Source of the DNA: Oscillospiraceae bacterium
GTDB lineage: Bacteria > Bacillota > Clostridia > Oscillospirales > Oscillospiraceae
Reading direction: 5' to 3'
NCBI GenBank assembly: GCA_015067565.1
Contig: SVMF01000009.1
Span: 32,512 to 96,511, forward strand
Length of the DNA stretch: 64,000 nt
This document shows, in pieces, positions 19,069-30,587 of the stretch (positions are counted from its first letter, which is position 1; every line of letters starts with the position of its first letter). A program made the translations under genes and the position numbers. The notes below the pieces were generated by a model that made no database searches, was not told the origin of the DNA, and saw only the letters and a program-made list of their open reading frames with translations.

Positions 19069-19105
19069 AAAAGGTATTGCAAAATATGAAAAGGTATTGT
19101 ATAAT
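19069..19105 (+). promoter_or_regulatory. RiPP operon promoter with tandem operator-like repeats
   Basis: TTGCAA (19077-19082), 17 nt, TATAAT (19100-19105). The 11-bp sequence AAAAGGTATTG occurs twice, at 19069-19079 and 19089-19099, with a 20-bp period, one overlapping the -35 and the other ending at the -10. Two direct half-sites on one DNA face suggest control by a dimeric regulator. The nearby LytTR protein is a possible but untested candidate. Confidence 0.72.
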
Positions 19106-19171
19106 AACTCATAGAAATATGGTTGCATGGTTTTGCGCTGAAATTGGCGCAAAGTTTTGGAGTAGATGAGA

Positions 19172-19441
19172 ATGAAGAGAAAATATCAAAAGCCCTATCT
19201 TGGACTGGAGTCCTTCCAACTGAATGCTTCGCTGGCGGTATCTTGTTCTGCGCAGAACAAGATACCGATCAACCATGGCGAGGATGACTGTTCCTTCGGT
19301 GGCCCCGGTGGCGGTGGTGGCCAGTTCTTTAACCTATTCAATTGCCAGATTGACCTGACCGGACCCGCGAATGACGGCAATGATACTATTTGCTATCATG
19401 GACCTCTCGCATCGGGCGGCATCAGCTTCACTTATTCTTAA
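19172..19441 (+). CDS. putative RiPP precursor peptide (89 aa)
   Basis: A small peptide heading an operon of radical SAM, HPr-kinase-like and PqqD-like proteins. The leader-like N-terminus is charged and aromatic (KRKYQKPYLGLESFQLNASLAVS). The putative core begins around C25, is rich in Gly, Asn and Asp, has cysteines at 25, 40, 58 and 74 and a Gly5 run, and ends in Ser89 (FTYS). ATG 19172 is preferred to 19166 because TTGGAG is 9 nt upstream instead of 3. The product class is not known. A 32-bp DNA palindrome spans codons 22-32. Confidence 0.75.
   Translation: MKRKYQKPYLGLESFQLNASLAVSCSAQNKIPINHGEDDCSFGGPGGGGGQFFNLFNCQIDLTGPANDGNDTICYHGPLASGGISFTYS
19236..19267. repeat. perfect 32-bp palindrome inside the precursor gene
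   Basis: CGGTATCTTGTTCTGC is followed at once by its exact reverse complement, with no spacer (axis 19251/19252). It lies in the coding sequence at the putative leader/core boundary. It could be a protein-binding site or an RNA hairpin that slows the ribosome. Confidence 0.9.
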
Positions 19442-19451
19442 TTATCTTCAG

Positions 19452-19490
19452 GGAGCCGGAGAATCTTCGGCTCCTTGCTTGTTTTGGAGA
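19452..19490 (+). terminator. attenuator between precursor and modification genes
   Basis: A 10-bp stem GGAGCCGGAG/CTTCGGCTCC with a 3-nt loop and a following TTGCTTGTTTT tract. Partial termination here would give far more precursor mRNA than enzyme mRNA, a common RiPP design. Confidence 0.8.
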
Positions 19491-19495
19491 GTGCC

Positions 19496-20350
19496 ATGCG
19501 ATATAGATTTGCAAATTCAGAACTGTTATGGCAGGCGAAGACACTTCTGCTGACGGAGGACAATTTTTCGGTTTTGTTTACTTCAGTTCGAAATACTGAT
19601 CCTGATTTTTTCTACTATGAAACGGCGATGCCCTCTGACATCATAAAAAATGCCAGACAGATCAAATATGCCGGTGGTTATGAGCTTTTTCAAACGGAGT
19701 GCGGTATCTTTCATATGAACCATTGGGCGATGTGCCGCTACGCCTTCGGCTTTTACATCGATGACCTGGACGGCGACACACCGATCTATGTCAATCCCGA
19801 GATCCTGAACCAGCAGACGATGATCGCGAGCCATTTCTTAAGCACCATCGGAGTGCACAGAAAGCTTTTGAATCGAAATTGTCCGATTCTGCACGCATCG
19901 TATGTTGTACACGACTCAGAGGCAATCTTGTTTTTGGGCGCATCGGGTACGGGGAAATCCACGCAGGCACAGCTGTGGCAGGATGTTCTTGGTGCGCAGA
20001 TCATCAATGGCGACAGAGTGCTTCTGGAATGCATTGGCGGCAAATGGACGGCACACGGTTACCCTTGCTGCGGCTCGTCGTATATCTGCATCAATCAAAG
20101 CGCTCCGATCAAAGCGATCGTCTTACTGCAGCAGGCGGCAGAAAACCGTGTCGAGGTGTCGAGTGTAGCAAAAAACATATGCGCGTTGACCTCTGCAACG
20201 GAGATATATCCTTTTGCGGACGCGGAGGTTTCGAAGGCCTTTGATCTGGCACAAAAAATCACCGCCAATATACCGATCTTGACGCTTCGTTGCACCCCGG
20301 ATGAACGGGCGGTCATGGCGTTAAAAGATTATCTGGAGAATGTACTATGA
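19496..20350 (+). CDS. HPr-kinase-like (HprK/PEPCK-fold) protein of the RiPP operon
   Basis: A 284-aa protein resembling the kinase half of HPr kinase/phosphorylase. The P-loop FLGASGTGKSTQAQLW sits at about residue 140 behind a ILHASYVVH strand, and NGDRVLLE follows. HprK-like proteins accompany some RiPP systems; in certain lasso-peptide clusters they phosphorylate a C-terminal Ser of the precursor. The peptide here does end in Ser, so kinase activity on it is a reasonable inference, not shown. ATG 19496 has GGAGAG upstream; the TTG at 19475 lies in the attenuator. The stop overlaps the next start (ATGA). Confidence 0.78.
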   Translation: MRYRFANSELLWQAKTLLLTEDNFSVLFTSVRNTDPDFFYYETAMPSDIIKNARQIKYAGGYELFQTECGIFHMNHWAMCRYAFGFYIDDLDGDTPIYVNPEILNQQTMIASHFLSTIGVHRKLLNRNCPILHASYVVHDSEAILFLGASGTGKSTQAQLWQDVLGAQIINGDRVLLECIGGKWTAHGYPCCGSSYICINQSAPIKAIVLLQQAAENRVEVSSVAKNICALTSATEIYPFADAEVSKAFDLAQKITANIPILTLRCTPDERAVMALKDYLENVL

Positions 20351-21444
20351 ACACGATTACCGACTACTTGCATAGGAAGGCTTCGGCCAATGCCGTACCG
20401 TTAAGCGGCTCGTTTGAGCTTTCGCCCGTGTGTAATTTCAGCTGCAAAATGTGCTATATCCGCAAAACACCGCAGCAGATCACAAAAGAGGGCGGAAGTC
20501 TGATCGACTGGAAAGACTGGCTTGCTCTTGCGAAGGATTGCCGGGAGGCAGGTATGCTGTACTTGCTGCTGACCGGTGGAGAGCCGTTCTTGTATCCGAA
20601 TTTCAGAAAGCTGTATGAATCATTGCATGAAATGGGACTCCTCTTGTCAATCAACACCAACGCGTCTTTGATCGATGAAGAGGTGATTGAGTGGCTCAAG
20701 GCCAGGGCTCCCGTGCGTATCAATGCCACACTTTACGGTGCATCGAGACAGACCTATGGCCGAATTTGCGGAAATCCAGATGGCTATGATAAAGCGGTCT
20801 GGGCGATCAGAAAACTGGTAGAGCTCGGCATCCCGGTCGTCATCAATGCCAGTATGATCCCTGAGAATTCGGAGGATCTTGAGGCGATCGTTCATTTTGG
20901 GCGCGAGCTGGCCCTTAATACCCGCATTAGCCATTATATGTTCCCACCGGTACGAAGGGAAAGGGAGAAAACGGATTCGCGCTTTGCCCCCGAAGTGGCA
21001 GCGCAGATGTACATGCGTAGGATCAAGTGTATGTACGAACCCGAGTATTTGCACAATATGCTGCAAAAGCAGACGGAGAAGAAACCGGAGGACACTTGGG
21101 GAAGCTATGGCGATTATATGTGCTGCAGAGCGGGACGAAGCAGCTTCTGGATTTCTTGGACGGGCAAGATGACAGCATGTGGATTGTTCGATTTTCCGAT
21201 CGTAAAGGAGCCGTTCCGCGAACCGTTTGCATGCTGCTGGAAGGAACTGACGCATCTGGTCAGAACCACACCTGTGCTTGAAAGCTGCTATGAATGTTCT
21301 TTGCGAGATATCTGCAATCCGTGTGCGGCGACTGTGCACGCAGAATGCGGTGATGTCAATGGAAAGGCGGAGTATTTGTGCCGTATGGCCGAATGCACCA
21401 GAGATGATATTTTTGCATACCTTAAGGAGGCAAATCATGAATAA
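20347..21444 (+). CDS. radical SAM/SPASM peptide maturase
   Basis: A 365-aa radical SAM enzyme. The 4Fe-4S motif is C29-x3-C33-x2-C36 (CNFSCKMC), the SAM-binding GGEPF follows, and a cysteine-rich C-terminal SPASM region (CCRAGRSSFWISWTG...CGLFDFP...CYECSLRDICNPC) can hold auxiliary clusters. SPASM proteins next to PqqD-like chaperones usually install thioether, C-C or epimer modifications in ribosomal peptides. The modification is not predictable from the sequence. It is translationally coupled to both neighbours (ATGA start; 8-nt overlap at its end). Confidence 0.9.
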   Translation: MNTITDYLHRKASANAVPLSGSFELSPVCNFSCKMCYIRKTPQQITKEGGSLIDWKDWLALAKDCREAGMLYLLLTGGEPFLYPNFRKLYESLHEMGLLLSINTNASLIDEEVIEWLKARAPVRINATLYGASRQTYGRICGNPDGYDKAVWAIRKLVELGIPVVINASMIPENSEDLEAIVHFGRELALNTRISHYMFPPVRREREKTDSRFAPEVAAQMYMRRIKCMYEPEYLHNMLQKQTEKKPEDTWGSYGDYMCCRAGRSSFWISWTGKMTACGLFDFPIVKEPFREPFACCWKELTHLVRTTPVLESCYECSLRDICNPCAATVHAECGDVNGKAEYLCRMAECTRDDIFAYLKEANHE

Positions 21445-22099
21445 AATGACTCGATTGATTGCGATTGTGATGGCGATTTTGCTTTTGACAGCTTGCACTG
21501 CGAGCGAGAAAAAGGTGGAGGAAACCGAACTTATTAAGGAATCCGCTATGGCGGGTGGAGAACAGGACACTGAGGATGTAAAGACTGGTGATGATTCTGA
21601 GAATATTGCTGAGCAGTCCGTGCCCGCCGAGAGTGGAACCAACGGTGAAGAAGAGCTGCAGACAAGTGGGGGAGCACAACCCTCCGAGCCGGATAATCAA
21701 TCCAGTGAACCACAAAGTGAAAATACTGACTCCGGAGCAACAAACATCCATTACGAGCCGTACCTTGCTGCGCTGTCATTGATGTCGCTTTCGCTGGAAT
21801 ATCCGGGCTTTGAGCTTGACGGTATTTATTTTGAGACCATTGTAGATGTGTCTGAAAAGTTTGAAAGCAAGGGCCTTTACATTTGTTTTAAAAGCGGCGG
21901 TGAGAGCTTGATCATTCGTGTGCTTCCGATGGAAAACGAACGTACCGAGCCTATGACACGCGATATTTTTGCCGATCAGGTCGGTTATGCAAGCTTTGAT
22001 CTTGCCGATACCATGCCTGAGGGCCTCAAGCGAATGAGAGAAGAGGACTTTGCAAGCCTTTTGCCTGAGCTTACGGCCATCAAGGTTTTGATGCATTGA
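21437..22099 (+). CDS. lipoprotein of the RiPP operon
   Basis: A 220-aa secreted lipoprotein: signal peptide MNKMTRLIAIVMAILLLTAC with lipobox LTAC, then a Glu/Ser-rich, probably disordered linker (about residues 25-105) and a compact C-terminal domain of about 110 residues that I do not recognise (YEPYLAALSLMSLSLEYPGF...). Translation is coupled to the radical SAM gene through an 8-nt overlap with AAGGAGG. A surface role in export, immunity or sensing of the product is a guess from position. Confidence 0.75.
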   Translation: MNKMTRLIAIVMAILLLTACTASEKKVEETELIKESAMAGGEQDTEDVKTGDDSENIAEQSVPAESGTNGEEELQTSGGAQPSEPDNQSSEPQSENTDSGATNIHYEPYLAALSLMSLSLEYPGFELDGIYFETIVDVSEKFESKGLYICFKSGGESLIIRVLPMENERTEPMTRDIFADQVGYASFDLADTMPEGLKRMREEDFASLLPELTAIKVLMH

Positions 22100-22109
22100 G
22101 GGATAGACG

Positions 22110-22373
22110 ATGAAGCTAAAATATGAGCTTATGAGCCGTGAGATTATGGGGGAGTATGCCCTGATTCCGGTGGGGGACAGTGCAATTGCTATGGGCGGCA
22201 TGATGATCACCAATGAGGTCGGTGCATTCTTGTGTGAAATGTTGCAGGTAGAAATGACGAAAGACGAACTTATTTCAGCACTCAGAGGCGAGTTTGACGT
22301 CGATCAGGCAACCGCCAATCAGGACGTTTCGGCCTTTCTTGAGCAGCTGGAAGGATGGGATTTATTAATTTAA
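22110..22373 (+). CDS. PqqD-like RiPP recognition element protein
   Basis: An 87-aa stand-alone PqqD-family winged-helix chaperone. The pattern GEYALIPVGDSAIAMGGMMITNEVGAFLCEML followed by TKDELISAL and VDQATANQDVSAFLEQLEGWDLL matches the family fold. Such proteins bind leader peptides and deliver them to the radical SAM enzyme. It is the last gene before the operon terminator. Confidence 0.88.
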   Translation: MKLKYELMSREIMGEYALIPVGDSAIAMGGMMITNEVGAFLCEMLQVEMTKDELISALRGEFDVDQATANQDVSAFLEQLEGWDLLI

Positions 22374-22386
22374 CTTTAATGTGAAA

Positions 22387-22425
22387 GGAGCCCCTGCACT
22401 CCGATTCAGGGGCTCCGTTATTTTG
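22387..22425 (+). terminator. terminator of the RiPP operon
   Basis: A perfect 10-bp stem GGAGCCCCTG/CAGGGGCTCC with a 10-nt loop, followed by GTTATTTT. Confidence 0.85.
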
Positions 22426-23295: not shown

Positions 23296-23877
23296 ATGGA
23301 AAAGAAAAAGATTGAGCTTCCATCCATCGAGGCTATGGAGGCTGAGCTCAAGCGAGTCAAATATCAAAAGCGTTATCGCAAGGTCATCCGCAGCACGATT
23401 TATACGCTCGTCACGGTTGCTGCGGTTGCGGTTCTGGTCGCAACGCTCTGGCTGCCTGTTTTGCAAATTCAGGGCAGTTCCATGACACCGACGCTTTATG
23501 ATGGAAATATTGTGGTTTCCGTCAAGGACAGTACGTTTGAAACCGGCGAGGTTATCGCATTTTATTACAATAACAAAATCCTTGTGAAGCGAGTAATCGC
23601 ACAACCCGGTGATTGGGTCGATATTGACGCCGACGGCACGGTGTTTGTCAACGGCGTCGAGCTCGACGAGCCTTACCTGCAGGAAAAGGCCTTGGGAGAA
23701 TGCAACATTGAGCTTCCATACCAGGTTCCCGCGGCAAAGATCTTTGTTATGGGTGATCACAGAAGTGTTTCGGCAGACTCGAGAAATACAGCTGTCGGTT
23801 GTGTTTCTGAAGAACAGATTGTCGGCAAGATTGTGTTTCGAGTTTGGCCATTATCTGAATTTGGATCGATAGGATAA
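23296..23877 (+). CDS. signal peptidase I, pilus-cluster type
   Basis: A second signal peptidase I (193 aa) with one transmembrane helix (about residues 33-52), catalytic Ser62 in IQGSSMTPTL and Lys98 in LVKRVIAQPGD; the last box reads GDHRSVSADSRN. Pilus islands of Gram-positive bacteria often carry their own LepB homologue needed for pilin export or assembly. It is placed 21 nt before the tip adhesin gene, which fits such a role. Confidence 0.9.
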   Translation: MEKKKIELPSIEAMEAELKRVKYQKRYRKVIRSTIYTLVTVAAVAVLVATLWLPVLQIQGSSMTPTLYDGNIVVSVKDSTFETGEVIAFYYNNKILVKRVIAQPGDWVDIDADGTVFVNGVELDEPYLQEKALGECNIELPYQVPAAKIFVMGDHRSVSADSRNTAVGCVSEEQIVGKIVFRVWPLSEFGSIG

Positions 23878-23898
23878 ACGAAAGTTGGTGAGTCCTGA

Positions 23899-26800
23899 AT
23901 GAAATTTGATACGCTGCAGAGAGTGGCGAAGTACAGCAAAGCCCGAAAACGCAAAAAGCGTTGGCAAAAGCTGGTTACTTGTCTTGCTGCGGTTGTGGTG
24001 TTCTGCACAGCATATGCGCTGATCCTTCCGGCAATCACAAAGGAACGGCCAAAATATTGTGGTATGCAGGAGCATACGCACAGTGCCTCGTGCTATGAGG
24101 AGGGTCAGCGTCTGCTGACCTGTGATCCTGTTGTCGAGGGGCAGATGCTTCTGCATTCGCACAATGAGTTGTGCTACGATGCCCAGGGGAACCTGATCTG
24201 CATGCTTGAGGAACTTACAGGTCATACGCATGGGATGCAATGCTTCGAGCTGGATCTGGTCTGTGTCAGCGACGACGAAGCGCATACGCATACGGATGGA
24301 TGCTATGCAGCTCGCAGCTTGTGCAATCTTCCAATGGCACACAGCCATACAGACACCTGCTATGCAGAAGGCAAGCTGATCTGTCCTTATCCCGAAATTT
24401 TGGAGCACGTACATAACGATGCCTGCTTCACAAGGGTTGATGCGACGCTGCTTTGCGAAAAGACGGAGCATGTTCATGATGAGAACTGCTTGGTTGATCG
24501 AACGGCAGATGTCGAAAGGGAAGAGGATTGGCTTGAGACCCTCCCGAAAGAGGAACTGAGTGAAAACTGGGCGCTCGATACGCTGAGCATTGCAGAGAGC
24601 CAGCTTGGCTATCAAGAGAGCAAAGAGAACTACGAGATACTGCCGTCCGGTGTCAAGAAGGGCTACAGTCGCTATGGCGCATGGTACGGCGACCATTACG
24701 GCGACTGGTGCGCAATGTTTGTCAGCTTCTGTCTGAACTACGCAGAGGTCGATTCCGAGTTCCTGCCCTTTGAGGCCAACTGCCAGACTTGGGTGGAAAA
24801 GCTCGAGGAGCTTGAACTTTATCATAAGGCGAATGAATATCCTGCCGGACCCGGCGATATTATCTTCTTTGATTATGAGGGGGATGAGAGCGCTGATCAT
24901 GTAGGCATTGTTGTTGAAATTATTGAACCGGATGAGAAGGAAAAAGACAAGCTTCCTGTCATCAAAACGATTGAGGGCAACTCCAGCAACTGCGTTGAGT
25001 ATAAGGAATATTCGGTAGCTGACCGCAAACTGATGGGCTACTGCGACGTGGACAAGGCTCAGCGCAATTATATCGAAAAATGCGTACATACCAAAACCTA
25101 CGAGACTGAGTTGTTCCGCGTGAGTGCGAGCTATGTAGCTGCGGCTGGGATTCCTGAGGAAGCGGAGCTGATGGTTCGCAGCATCATGCCGGATACCGCA
25201 ATTTATGGAAGCTGCCATGCGGATGCAGAAGCATTTTTGGGAGCTGATTGTGCAGACGTGGTAAGCTGTAAAATTACCGATTTTAAGCTATATGACATCT
25301 GCTTCACGCTCGATGGACAGGAGATAGAGCCATCGTCTTGGGTAGATGTTGAAATTCAACTCCACGATGCACAATTGAGTGCAAATGAATCGGTTACTGT
25401 GATCCATTATCGTGATGATGGTGTTGAGATTCCGGATGATGTTGCGTTCACGACCTATGACAGCGGCCTTACAACCAGCTTTGAGACAGATAGCTTCTCT
25501 CTGTTTGCTGTTGTTACAACACAAGAACAGGTCGTACCCATTATCTGCCTGAACAAATTCAGCATCACAAGCACCAATATTCAGTCCTTGGCGGGTAGAC
25601 GATATATGATCACTGCCGGCGATTATGCGTTGGCTCTGAGCGACGACCAAATGCTTGCTACTGAGCTTACTGTTGCTCAGACAGATGATCGCAGAACGGC
25701 TTCTGAGGAGCTTGTGTGTTGGGAATTTGAACAGAGCTCTGGTACAAGGTATTATATCAAGACAGTTCGAAACGATACAAATTATTACCTAAGTATCGCA
25801 GATACCGCATTCGAGGTAGTGACGGAAAAGGGTGATGCTACCGTTTTCACAGCTACACGCAGCGGTACAAACCTTACAATTGCAAACGGTAGCTTGTATC
25901 TAAACCTTTCGGATGTCGGTGTGAGCGCCGGAACTTCTTCTAATCTGAGCCTCTACACGATCCCTTCGGGAGAGTTTACAGTCACTTTCGATGGTCAGAT
26001 TGGTAAAGCTGCTTATTTTATGAACAGCGGACAGAGCCAAACTTATAAGTTTGATGATTCGAAGAAGTGGGATGTCAAAACTACCAACAACGGTTATGTG
26101 ACGTTGCCCACCGCAGAGGAGACACAGACTCCGGGCAATTATCCGTTGAAGCTGAATGGTTGGTATGACATTATCAACAAGGTCTTTTACGACAGCTCTA
26201 TGCTTGGACAGCAGATTCGTGTTACAAATAATACGATTTTCTATCCGGAATGGATCCCAGCTTCGTACGATATTGGACGTGATGTGAATGTCATCAAGGG
26301 TCAGCCCGATACAAGCGATTTTATCCAGACACATGTTTACGATTACACCGAGCTTTTTAATACGCATAGCGCAAATTATAATGAGTCTACGAAAGCTTGG
26401 GAATTTGATCCGAACAGCGAGCTTGGATTTATCTTCTTCGATTATCTTACCACAGGCAATATAGGTAACATCAGCAACAAAAACCAGGCGGTTGATGGTG
26501 TTACGGTAAATGCCGAAAAAACGAACGGTAGACGTGGGTCATCTACGAGCTTCCCCGGCACGATAACCACGGGCATCGCAAATGATCAGCGACTTGAAGC
26601 GCTTTTCGGCACAAAGCCTCTGGCCGGCAGACACAATGTCGGTGAGGCGGACTGGCTGTACAGTTTTGATCCGGATACCGGTTTTTACTACTATAATAGT
26701 GCGAAAAATGCCGCTTCCTACAATCAAAGCGAGCAACGCTTCTATGTTTATGACTATGTTGTCAATATTGACAGCCAGAACAGCTTGAATGACTTCTTGC

Positions 26801-28959
26801 CGCTTAATTACGGCCAGCATCAGTATGCCGAGAAGGATAATGAGGCGAATTACTGGTTTGGTATGAAGAGCGAGATTACATTCTATCTGCCGGATGACAG
26901 TGGTAGCGGAAAGAATAAGTCTACGAACGGAACGGATATGCAGCTTCGCTTCTCGGGTGACGATGATATTTGGATTTTCATTGATGACAATCTCGTTCTT
27001 GACCTGGGCGGCGTGCATGATGTCGTTTATGGCGAGGTTAATTTCTCGACCGGTAAGGTTACGACAGGACAAGCTCTTTCTTCAAGTGCTATTGCGCAAG
27101 ACACAGCACCTTCTTATGCGGATATGCCCGGTGTTACCTATGGCGCAGCCGGAGTTACCACGATGGATCTTCCTGATGTGATTGAGGGAGGTAAGGAGCA
27201 CAAAATCACGATCTATTACTTGGAGCGTGGATCCTCGCTCTCGAACTGTGCAGTCTACTTTAATCTTTCTCCTGCCTACGAGCTTCAGATTACGAAGACA
27301 GATCCGAGCTTGAATGAGGAGGGAGCACATGACAACCTTCCGGGGAAACCACTCGCTGGAGCTCAATTCCAAGTCTTTGATGATGCGGCATGCACAACTC
27401 CCTCTACACTGTACATCATTGGCGAGGACGGCAGCAGAGTGGAAAGCGTCGACTCCATATTTACCACAGGTGCTGACGGTATCGTGAGATGCTGGGGACT
27501 GTTCCCGAATAAAACATACTACATAAAAGAGATCAAACCACCGAGTGGATATCCCGGTATGTCGGAATATCTTATTAAGATTGACCTGAATGCTGTTGGT
27601 GAGGCTGTTATTGTCACGCTTGACAGCAACGGTAGCGAGTGGAAATTTGCCGATGCATATTACCGTTCAAGCGAAAACGAGCATCTGATCCATATTGATG
27701 TTTATAATGAGAAATTTATAACTTCTCAGGAAGATGCCCACCGTTCCTTGTCTGTAATGAAGGAATGGGCGGAGGGCAGTGAAAACATTCCGGATGAGAT
27801 CGAGGTCACACTTCTTGCAAACGGGGAACCTACGAACCGAAAGCTCACCATTGGCAAGGAAGATGACTGGAAAGCGACCTTCTATTACCTGCCGGTCAGA
27901 GATGCTGATGGTAAGGAAATCGAGTATTCGGTTGTCGAAACTTCTGTGATCGGCTTTGTACCGAGCTATGAGTATGTGGAGGGAGAGAAGTACACCGTTG
28001 TTGTTCAAGAGGCTAACTGGGGAACGGTTACAACACTTGAAGACGGTAAGACATATCGTTTCGTTGCCAGCAGCAGAGCGGTTTCGAACGAAGGTGGAAG
28101 TTCACTCGTGGCACATACGCCTTCGGAAACAGATACCGAGCAACAGTGGATTGCGCATTATGTGACGAATGGATTCCTGCTGCAAAATGTTGCGCACCCG
28201 ACGCGCTATATGTCTATCAGCACATCAAGTGCTACAGCGGTTGTGGGATCTAACGGTAATGAACCAAGCGGAAACAATGTCACGATCAATCTTACCAATG
28301 GATCACTGAAATCAAGGGCTACCAGCGTTGGCCGCAATGCTTCTCTGTATTACAGCAATGGCAGCTATAGAGGTAGTGCGTGGAGTTCAACCTCGTTTAC
28401 AACCTACGTTTACAACGAGGCAATTGTGGAAGAAGTTGACAATCCTCCGTACTGGAAGGTTACGAACACACCGCGACCGACGCACATAAACATACCGATA
28501 CAAAAGAATTGGGACCGTACGCTTCCGGGCTCAAGCAAGAAGGAGGTTACCTTCAGCCTTTACTATGTGGCAGAGGGTAAGAATCCTGAACTTAAGGGCA
28601 CGATTGCGTTGAATGAACAGAATGTTTGGTTTAACGAATTTGTGAATATGCCCGTTCCTGAGGAGGGCGCATTCTACTGTGTCATAGAAAATACGACGGA
28701 ATTTGATGTGCGATATGGCGATAACCTCGTTAAGATCATCATCGACGGAAAACTGAGAGAGGCTTCCAAGGTTGTTCTTGACGATGAAGGGAAAGCGGTA
28801 CAGGTTGATATTACCAACAGCTTCCTTCTGGTCATGCCCGCCACAGGTGGGGTCGGTACCCAATGGTATACAATAGGAGGACTTGTGTTGATCGTTGCAA
28901 GTTTGCTCCTGATGTATAAACGTCAAAAATGCAGAAAGGAGGATTATATATCTTCCTAA
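23899..28959 (+). CDS. giant pilus tip adhesin-like protein: HxH repeats, CHAP, fibro-slime, Cna-B, sortase signal
   Basis: A 1686-aa surface protein. After an N-terminal transmembrane signal (about 22-46) come seven repeats of an xHxHxxxCY-type motif (e.g. EHTHSASCYEEG, AHSHTDTCYAEG; about 55-210). Next is a CHAP-type amidase domain (DWCAMFVSFC, later DHVGIVVE; about 225-375). A beta-rich region leads to a fibro-slime domain (DMQLRFSGDDDIWIFIDDNLVLDLGGVHD; about 1000-1040). At least three Cna-B/SpaA-like domains follow. The C-terminus is MPATGG, a hydrophobic helix and KRQKCRK, so a sortase should anchor it. It may act as both adhesin and cell-wall hydrolase. The start has only a weak SD. 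Confidence 0.87.
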   Translation: MKFDTLQRVAKYSKARKRKKRWQKLVTCLAAVVVFCTAYALILPAITKERPKYCGMQEHTHSASCYEEGQRLLTCDPVVEGQMLLHSHNELCYDAQGNLICMLEELTGHTHGMQCFELDLVCVSDDEAHTHTDGCYAARSLCNLPMAHSHTDTCYAEGKLICPYPEILEHVHNDACFTRVDATLLCEKTEHVHDENCLVDRTADVEREEDWLETLPKEELSENWALDTLSIAESQLGYQESKENYEILPSGVKKGYSRYGAWYGDHYGDWCAMFVSFCLNYAEVDSEFLPFEANCQTWVEKLEELELYHKANEYPAGPGDIIFFDYEGDESADHVGIVVEIIEPDEKEKDKLPVIKTIEGNSSNCVEYKEYSVADRKLMGYCDVDKAQRNYIEKCVHTKTYETELFRVSASYVAAAGIPEEAELMVRSIMPDTAIYGSCHADAEAFLGADCADVVSCKITDFKLYDICFTLDGQEIEPSSWVDVEIQLHDAQLSANESVTVIHYRDDGVEIPDDVAFTTYDSGLTTSFETDSFSLFAVVTTQEQVVPIICLNKFSITSTNIQSLAGRRYMITAGDYALALSDDQMLATELTVAQTDDRRTASEELVCWEFEQSSGTRYYIKTVRNDTNYYLSIADTAFEVVTEKGDATVFTATRSGTNLTIANGSLYLNLSDVGVSAGTSSNLSLYTIPSGEFTVTFDGQIGKAAYFMNSGQSQTYKFDDSKKWDVKTTNNGYVTLPTAEETQTPGNYPLKLNGWYDIINKVFYDSSMLGQQIRVTNNTIFYPEWIPASYDIGRDVNVIKGQPDTSDFIQTHVYDYTELFNTHSANYNESTKAWEFDPNSELGFIFFDYLTTGNIGNISNKNQAVDGVTVNAEKTNGRRGSSTSFPGTITTGIANDQRLEALFGTKPLAGRHNVGEADWLYSFDPDTGFYYYNSAKNAASYNQSEQRFYVYDYVVNIDSQNSLNDFLPLNYGQHQYAEKDNEANYWFGMKSEITFYLPDDSGSGKNKSTNGTDMQLRFSGDDDIWIFIDDNLVLDLGGVHDVVYGEVNFSTGKVTTGQALSSSAIAQDTAPSYADMPGVTYGAAGVTTMDLPDVIEGGKEHKITIYYLERGSSLSNCAVYFNLSPAYELQITKTDPSLNEEGAHDNLPGKPLAGAQFQVFDDAACTTPSTLYIIGEDGSRVESVDSIFTTGADGIVRCWGLFPNKTYYIKEIKPPSGYPGMSEYLIKIDLNAVGEAVIVTLDSNGSEWKFADAYYRSSENEHLIHIDVYNEKFITSQEDAHRSLSVMKEWAEGSENIPDEIEVTLLANGEPTNRKLTIGKEDDWKATFYYLPVRDADGKEIEYSVVETSVIGFVPSYEYVEGEKYTVVVQEANWGTVTTLEDGKTYRFVASSRAVSNEGGSSLVAHTPSETDTEQQWIAHYVTNGFLLQNVAHPTRYMSISTSSATAVVGSNGNEPSGNNVTINLTNGSLKSRATSVGRNASLYYSNGSYRGSAWSSTSFTTYVYNEAIVEEVDNPPYWKVTNTPRPTHINIPIQKNWDRTLPGSSKKEVTFSLYYVAEGKNPELKGTIALNEQNVWFNEFVNMPVPEEGAFYCVIENTTEFDVRYGDNLVKIIIDGKLREASKVVLDDEGKAVQVDITNSFLLVMPATGGVGTQWYTIGGLVLIVASLLLMYKRQKCRKEDYISS

Positions 28960-29015
28960 TGCGTACAAATTCGCTCAAAAATTCAATCTGATAAAACATG
29001 AAAGGAAAAATTGTC

Positions 29016-30587
29016 ATGAAAAAAGCATTTAGCATTCTCTTGGCACTGGCTCTCATTTTGAGCCTGTCCAGCTTCGTAATGGCTGCAAACATTACGATTA
29101 AAGACGGAGCAGCAGGCTCTGAGTATGCAGCATACCGTATTTTGAACGCAACCGACGGTGGCGAAGGCAAATTTGCATATACCCTCAACGACAAGTATGC
29201 TGACATCCTCTACGCTGTCACCGGCAAGAGCGACCTGGCGGACATCATTGAATACATTTCCGCACTTGATTCCGATGGCGTTCGCGCATTCTCTGATGCA
29301 ACCTACAAGGCTATCATCGAGGCTGATCCCGCTCTTGATGCAGACTACACCTCAGTCGATGGTACATTTGCTAATGTCGAGCAGGGCTACTACCTGATCG
29401 CTGAGAGCAAGGTTGGCGACATGACTGATACCTTCTCTCTGGTTATGCTTACCACTGCAGGCAAGGAAAATGTTACGATCAAGTCTAAGGAAGACAAGCC
29501 TACCGTTCAGAAGCAGGTTATGGAGAAGAATGACTCCACCGACTTTGAGGTTTGGGGCGACAGTGCCGACTACGACTTCAACGATACCATTCCTTACACC
29601 ATCACCGGCAGAATCTCTAATAAGTATGACAACTATAGAAGCTACTACTATAGCATCAATGACTCTATGGAAGACGGCCTGACCTTCAACCGGGATGCTA
29701 AGATTTATGTTGCTAATGGCGACGAAATGTACGAGGTAACCGAGTATTTCAAGCTCACCGTTACCACCAGCGAAAACACCGGCTACGCAAACGGCTTCAC
29801 TGCTGAGTGCAACCTGAAGGAACTGGACGAAGAGTGCGACGAGTTCGTTATCACTTCCGATAGCCTGATTCTTGTTGAGTATTCTGTCACCCTGAATGAA
29901 CACGCCATTGCAGGACCTGAGGGCAATAAGAACACTGTATACCTCGAGTACGAAAACGATCCGTACAACGAAGGTGACGGCGACATTAACACTCCCGATA
30001 AACCCGGTGAGGGCGAAGACGATGACGATGACGATAAGCCCGGCCAGACCGAAGGCGACACCAACATTGTTTTCACTTATGACCTGGTTCTGAACAAGGT
30101 TGACAAGGATGGCAATGCACTGGAAGGCGCAGGTTTCACACTCTTTAAGTGGATCAACAACGACGGTCAGGAGTACTGGGAGAGAGTCGGCGAGGAGATC
30201 ACCGGCGTTACCACATTCTACTATGAGAGCATCGACAACGGCAAGTATAAGCTGGTTGAGACCAAGGTTCCTGAAGGCTACAACAGATGCGAAGACCTGA
30301 TCTTTGAGGTCGTCGGCGACTACGACACCACGAAGGATCCCGTTGAGCTGACCAGGCTTTATGTTGTCAATGAGGACGGCGAGGATATCTCCACTGAGGA
30401 GAATACTCTCTTCATTGCAAATCTTGAGATGGGCACCGTTACAACCAACATCGTTAACCACACTGGTGCTGAGTTGCCCGAGACCGGTGGCATGGGCACT
30501 ACCATGATCTATATTGCCGGCGCTGTTCTGCTCGTTGGCGCAATCGTGCTTCTGGTTGCTAAGAAGCGCATGAACTCTGCTGAGTAA
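29016..30587 (+). CDS. major (backbone) pilin, LPETG-anchored
   Basis: A 523-aa secreted protein: signal peptide MKKAFSILLALALILSLSSFVMA, an N-terminal pilin domain ending in EDKPTVQKQV, whose Lys is a candidate for intermolecular linkage, an acidic linker with a D6 run, and a C-terminal Cna-B domain with the E-box YKLVETKVPEGY. LPETGG is followed by a hydrophobic helix and KKRMNSAE. Codon bias is strong, unlike the flanking adhesin, as expected for the abundant shaft subunit. ATG 29016 is used because AAAGGA lies 9 nt upstream. Confidence 0.9.
   Translation: MKKAFSILLALALILSLSSFVMAANITIKDGAAGSEYAAYRILNATDGGEGKFAYTLNDKYADILYAVTGKSDLADIIEYISALDSDGVRAFSDATYKAIIEADPALDADYTSVDGTFANVEQGYYLIAESKVGDMTDTFSLVMLTTAGKENVTIKSKEDKPTVQKQVMEKNDSTDFEVWGDSADYDFNDTIPYTITGRISNKYDNYRSYYYSINDSMEDGLTFNRDAKIYVANGDEMYEVTEYFKLTVTTSENTGYANGFTAECNLKELDEECDEFVITSDSLILVEYSVTLNEHAIAGPEGNKNTVYLEYENDPYNEGDGDINTPDKPGEGEDDDDDDKPGQTEGDTNIVFTYDLVLNKVDKDGNALEGAGFTLFKWINNDGQEYWERVGEEITGVTTFYYESIDNGKYKLVETKVPEGYNRCEDLIFEVVGDYDTTKDPVELTRLYVVNEDGEDISTEENTLFIANLEMGTVTTNIVNHTGAELPETGGMGTTMIYIAGAVLLVGAIVLLVAKKRMNSAE

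Follow-up and report, generated by a model that had tools for sequence, protein, structure and literature searches.

The window analysed here, a 64,000-nucleotide stretch from the 2.1 Mb, 31-contig, gut-type Clostridia genome of an Oscillospiraceae bacterium, contains a five-gene operon that almost certainly makes a ribosomally synthesized and post-translationally modified peptide (RiPP). Its genes encode a small precursor peptide, an HprK-like protein, a radical S-adenosylmethionine (SAM)/SPASM maturase, a lipoprotein, and a discrete PqqD-family RiPP recognition element (RRE). On balance, sequence comparisons favor a product in which the radical SAM enzyme would introduce cross-links and the HprK-like enzyme would phosphorylate the C-terminal Ser. 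What is new is the combination, namely a radical-SAM-linked clade of HprK-like proteins in which the first Asp of the His-Lys-Asp-Asp kinase motif is replaced (non-DD, as opposed to DD) together with YxxP-led precursors, which forms a branch of the lasso/LPP group that had no name so far. This combination was not described in the open-licence literature searched, where "radical SAM" occurred with "HPr kinase" only in a mention of lasso peptides and the SynChlorMet cassette was not found, although such silence is weak evidence.

Counted from its likely start codon (ATG at 19172), the window precursor has 89 aa (MKRKYQKPYLGLESFQLNASLAVSC...ICYHGPLASGGISFTYS) and shows a YxxP leader, four Cys residues, a GGGGG run, and a C-terminal Ser. 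A precursor scan of GTDB genomes detected the complete operon, with identical gene order, in a second metagenome-assembled genome, SIG473, whose four non-precursor proteins are approximately 42-71% identical to those of the window; because the whole five-gene order recurs there, the arrangement is more than chance. Related clusters in the family, order, and class were gathered with the maturase and HprK-like sequences as queries, and precursors were chosen by a YxxP leader near HprK-like or radical SAM genes, not by their C-termini. In approximately 20 further Clostridia loci, a precursor accompanies the HprK-like/radical SAM gene pair, and thus the small open reading frame (ORF) is conserved. 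A lack of such conservation would have spoken against a preliminary description of the region made from the sequence alone, whose reading of five coupled genes as a RiPP operon is thereby upheld, with a leader-type precursor conserved beside an RRE and a SPASM maturase in some twenty loci. The [YW]xxP leader is present in 22/22 tabulated precursors, commonly as M(K/R)xxYxxP...(I/V)A..C. After it come cores of 50-70 aa, almost wholly different from one relative to the next; many of them have a CY motif. A conserved leader, a variable core, and a small precursor gene adjoining an RRE and a tailoring enzyme are the general marks of a RiPP cluster, and all are seen here. The four Cys, the Gly run, and the final Ser that the preliminary description had singled out are all present and the Ser is conserved; the Gly run is private to the window copy (absent from the L024, L025, and L026 precursors) and is no class feature.

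In a Pfam/NCBIfam scan, the maturase and the RRE matched radical SAM (PF04055, 1.5e-24) and PqqD (PF05402, 1.1e-13), respectively, the HprK-like protein gave weak matches to the HprK-related families ScmC and HprK_rel_B, and neither the precursor nor the lipoprotein reached the cut-off of any family. When the PqqD profile was compared with solved structures, TbiB1 came first and TfuB1 fourth, the other two matches being PqqD/lasso chaperones, with no further matches. The YxxP motif is what lasso-type RREs bind (PMC13381572), and it is highly probable that the RRE recognizes the leader here as well. In the maturase, C29/C33/C36 and seven Cys of the SPASM region (260, 278, 314, 317, 323, 326, and 345) are invariant in a 19-sequence alignment; they form CxxxCxxC and then C-x12-G-x4-C, CX2CX5CX2C, and a final C, with G273 nearly invariant. 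The nearest solved maturases by sequence are SkfB and SuiB (6efn, 5v1q), which share the fold family and the radical SAM and SPASM cysteines, whereas the window system has another leader and a separate RRE protein. Cross-linking of the precursor by the SPASM enzyme is likely.

The end of the precursor bears on the role proposed for the HprK-like protein. Beside non-DD HprK-like proteins, 19/22 precursors end in Ser, or 14/17 core clusters after clustering at <=40% identity, versus 2/16 precursors beside DD proteins (Fisher p 7e-6, relatedness ignored); among long ORFs of these loci in general, the share is 5.7%, and Ser-ending precursors also occur in the later loci L060 and L132. The case for Ser is that, in the sequences compared, the last residue is kept while the preceding core changes. 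In paeninodin-type lasso peptides, the C-terminal Ser is phosphorylated by the HprK-like kinases PadeK, ThcoK, and PsmK (PMC9266682); SyanK is also a C-terminal-Ser kinase, and the target of LppK is S3 (PMC9266682, PMC13381572). The preliminary description had thus noticed a residue that is indeed conserved while missing its likely meaning as a kinase target.

By sequence, the profile of the HprK-like protein found no match in PDB. Its AlphaFold model (mean pLDDT 79) matches HprK/P 1kkl and PEPCK, Foldseek placing the second half of the protein in the HprK/PEPCK fold, and H133, P-loop K154, and D173 are invariant in the alignment. The LPP-type copies mostly have NDD, whereas the radical-SAM-linked clade has NGD, CND, or SSD, with the exception of NDD subclades (e.g., VNDDTPA), most of whose precursors have another last residue than Ser. 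In the tree, the window protein lies outside the LPP-type clade (support 99/96), and by its sequences the radical-SAM-linked clade is distinct, its DD turned into GD, ND, or SD.

Several observations weigh against a cross-linked and C-terminally phosphorylated RiPP. The chief doubt, and also the most interesting biochemical point, is the lost first Asp, which is Gly in the window protein and Gly, Asn, or Ser across the clade. BsfK and other lasso kinases need both Asp residues of the His-Lys-Asp-Asp motif (PMC10368454), and therefore phosphotransfer is not certain. Some precursors end otherwise (Gly in L083, Thr in L118, and Tyr in L027; among later loci, Lys in L131 and Thr in L133), the association of Ser with non-DD proteins represents essentially one clade and not many independent events, and the window operon has no linked protease or exporter. 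With GD, ND, or SD in place of DD, the HprK-like protein might have ceased to be a Ser kinase and serve as an ATP-binding protein with another C-terminal chemistry (nucleotidyl transfer, activation, or phosphorylation with subsequent elimination), or else support the SPASM enzyme as a scaffold. The distribution of the motif, non-DD in 29/37 tabulated radical-SAM-linked copies versus DD in 16/23 copies without a linked radical SAM gene, fits such a change of function, as does the need of BsfK for both Asp; however, the His, the P-loop Lys, and the second Asp are invariant and the C-terminal Ser is kept across unrelated cores, and we regard the change as unlikely while still a serious competitor.

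The preliminary description matched the operon to no class it could name, which for the most part holds, as no curated family covers the precursor and no paper found reports the combination, whereas its parts are recognizable as kin of the paeninodin-type lasso peptides and of the LPP family reported in 2026. The nearest curated gene set is the SynChlorMet cassette, which combines HprK-like ScmC, PqqD-like ScmD, and radical SAM ScmE/F, but the scores fall far under the curated cut-offs (25.5 vs. 125 bits for ScmC, 16 vs. 100, and 65 vs. 400 bits). With the LPP family (Popov et al. 2026, PMC13381572), the operon has a YxxP leader, a discrete RRE, and an HprK-like enzyme in common, to which its relatives add an SpI-like leader peptidase and an MsbA-like exporter, and LPP-like loci occur elsewhere in the order as well as within the window genome itself. 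An LPP system, however, has a nucleoside triphosphate (NTP) transferase and no radical SAM enzyme, and carries its phosphate on S3 beside the leader. Plain membership in this family (SpI, RRE, HprK-like kinase, NTP transferase, and MsbA-like exporter acting on S3) is improbable: these shared parts, the SpI and ATP-binding cassette (ABC) genes of relatives, and an NTP_transf_5 locus in the window genome speak for it, but the operon has a radical SAM enzyme in place of SpI, exporter, and NTP transferase (PF14907, absent from the five genes and present at C24). Of the motif YxxPxVLxHQxIxFETxxS with its phosphorylatable S3, only the YxxP part is present, and the LPP-type copies found here mostly keep the DD that the window clade has altered, the window protein standing outside their clade.

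It is still less probable that the peptide is the precursor of a small redox cofactor that is not exported, following the logic of PQQ or mycofactocin. A precursor, a PqqD protein, and a SPASM enzyme form the core of the operon, which lacks a linked exporter, but the long cores diverge almost wholly between relatives, orphan extra precursors exist, and several relatives encode an exporter and a leader peptidase. The paeninodin-type lasso clusters (PadeK, ThcoK, and PsmK; PMC9266682) resemble the operon in the Ser-ending precursor, HprK-like enzyme, B1-type RRE, and [Y/W]xxP leader, and differ in that the window operon has a SPASM maturase, a Cys-rich core, and an altered DD (His, Lys, and second Asp kept, first Asp replaced by Gly). 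A lasso cluster whose cyclase was lost or never nearby is the least plausible reading, as the shared leader, RRE, and HprK-like enzyme are set against cores that are too long and Cys-rich and the absence of a B2 protease or asparagine-synthetase-like cyclase from the five genes and the scanned neighbours (Pfam/NCBIfam). Since the operon lacks defining features of both the lasso and the LPP families, it was not filed as a member of either.

If the operon does make a cross-linked phosphopeptide, the RRE would bind the YxxP leader and pass the precursor to the two tailoring enzymes, of which the SPASM enzyme would tie residues of the Cys-containing core together through at least one thioether or C-C cross-link and the HprK-like enzyme would phosphorylate the C-terminal Ser in the manner of PadeK, ThcoK, and PsmK. 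An SpI-like peptidase would then remove the leader and an MsbA-like ABC protein would export the core, both of which the window genome would have to provide in trans. Analogy suggests a pathway that runs like the phosphorylated lasso/LPP route with an added radical SAM step. The lack of a peptidase or transporter, remarked on in the preliminary description, is true of the window operon but not of relatives L038, L077, and L084, where SpI-like peptidase and MsbA-like ABC exporter genes lie inside the cluster, and the puzzle of how the product leaves the cell is therewith solved in outline. The window genome has at C24 (L100:6300-8226) an LPP-like set of PqqD, SpI-like peptidase, and NTP_transf_5 genes without an adjacent kinase, in a polysaccharide locus; a leader peptidase is thus available in trans, and this enzyme may be a candidate for processing the window precursor. 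A search for ABC proteins in the same genome gave matches at 24-28% identity, none adjoining parts of the RiPP loci. The neighbouring flippase, once suggested as exporter, was rejected, as it is of the MOP/O-glycosylation type, lies on the opposite, divergent strand grouped with a glycosyltransferase, and has no tie to the peptide. The lipoprotein, with a low-complexity linker and a C-terminal domain of ~118 aa, might be the partner on the surface side, serving in immunity, as a receptor, or as a folding factor. The AlphaFold model of this domain is weak (pLDDT 69) and without a significant Foldseek match; relatives have an unrelated membrane-anchored protein in the same slot, to which it shows no profile similarity.

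Eight relatives (L029, L030, L031, L032, L073, L075, L082, and L116) have the gene of a giant secreted protein directly upstream of the precursor on the same strand, with gaps of 15-29 nt or, in L116, a 17-nt overlap, and the two are probably co-transcribed. These proteins of 1000-1700 aa, several with a signal-peptide-like start, share an Ig-like module but differ in their heads, which are GH20 in L082 and PA14 in others. A protein with an endonuclease I domain in L040 precedes the precursor at a wider gap of 191 nt. The module is single-copy in 7/8 other genomes tested, six of these copies being at the RiPP locus; in G440, where the contig with the HprK-like gene is cut off, it lies on another contig. 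The module model was built from the giant proteins themselves, which does not imply the lack of extra copies in those genomes. The window operon lacks the module, copies of which adjoin precursors at C3 and C19 of the window genome, with three further strong copies elsewhere. The precursor of relatives lies directly behind such a gene, which makes a role of the product at the cell surface probable. A tentative wider proposal, which we hold somewhat below even chances, is a distinct Clostridia RiPP class in which a radical SAM cross-linker and a non-DD HprK-type enzyme acting on the conserved C-terminal Ser share a YxxP-led precursor, and the peptide works with the upstream giant protein, often marked by a single-copy Ig-like module and heads such as GH20. 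If true, radical SAM RiPPs would join lasso peptides and the linear LPP peptides as targets of HprK-like phospho-tailoring, and a YxxP leader, a C-terminal Ser, and a non-DD HprK would provide a simple sequence rule by which to detect them in gut Clostridia. The system would also test whether an HprK enzyme works without the first metal-binding Asp, and would connect the orphan peptides with large surface proteins that are secreted, with a bearing on what LPP and paeninodins do. The secretion domain of the giant proteins was dropped as evidence on account of ~30 occurrences in the genome, and the rarer Ig-like module was used. A ~200-aa C-terminal domain (..ITWSVESFVAQ..NAML.YGD..AAY), probably a surface or secretion domain, is common to ~30 secreted proteins of the window genome.

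At the genomic level, matches to the HprK-like protein at 1e-25 were found in 124/394 genomes of the order, mostly of the shorter LPP-type form, and those to the maturase at 1e-90 are sparse (12/391 genomes of the class and 5/399 of the phylum, own genome counted). Parts of the system are scattered over the window genome: C29 has an orphan precursor (61% identical), C3 has one that adjoins another HprK-like gene, and C19 has one that adjoins a radical SAM-PqqD pair. Both the window genome and SIG473 have orphan second precursors ending in FAFS or FTWS without linked enzymes (L026:5713-5964, L025:8001-8258). A truncated radical SAM/SPASM remnant of ~181 aa lies beside a 1926-aa secreted protein at C31 (L008:5924-6469).

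Features of the operon and its signals, in window coordinates
Feature	Position	Strand	Remarks
Promoter-like TTGCAA-17-TATAAT	19077..19105	+	10/12 consensus; the case is its position, such sites in the region being not above shuffles
Precursor peptide gene	19166..19441	+	Homologues in own genome and relatives
Perfect 32-bp palindrome in precursor gene, putative leader/core boundary	19236..19267	.	16-nt arms
Hairpin with T-rich tail, attenuator-type, precursor/enzyme gap	19449..19477	+	13 bp, z -4.9 vs. shuffles
HprK-like protein gene (284 aa)	19496..20350	+	H133, P-loop GASGTGKS (K154), NGD (D173)
Radical SAM/SPASM maturase gene (365 aa)	20347..21444	+	Family scan and 19-sequence alignment
Lipoprotein gene, lipobox LTAC	21437..22099	+	Sequence features
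Discrete PqqD-family RRE gene, lasso B1 type	22110..22373	+	Best solved relatives TbiB1, TfuB1
Operon terminator hairpin	22384..22419	+	z -4.1 vs. shuffles

In the ORF listing of the window, all five genes are on the forward strand, and overlaps of 4 nt (HprK-like/radical SAM) and 8 nt (radical SAM/lipoprotein) join three of them. The operon had been credited with its own promoter, attenuator, and terminator, and all three are found: a promoter-like site and two hairpins that fold far better than shuffles. A hairpin directly 3' of the precursor gene is a common means by which RiPP operons obtain an excess of precursor over enzyme, and relative L024 keeps one at the equivalent position (z -3.8). 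The palindrome is single in the genome and absent from L024; with no second copy, it was ruled out as a repeat element.

Downstream, as in SIG473, the operon is followed by coiled-coil, signal-peptidase, and pilus-type genes. The adjacent signal peptidase (23296-23877) is an unlikely leader peptidase, as it is of the bacterial type (TIGR02227) and its gene remains linked to those of the LPXTG pilus in L024. In the window, this peptidase gene is followed by LPXTG pilus proteins (23296-30587), including a tip-like protein of 1686 aa with CHAP/Cna_B/SpaA domains and a pilin backbone of 529 aa, and the synteny of the pilus genes and the RiPP operon is preserved over the stretch that locus L024 covers.
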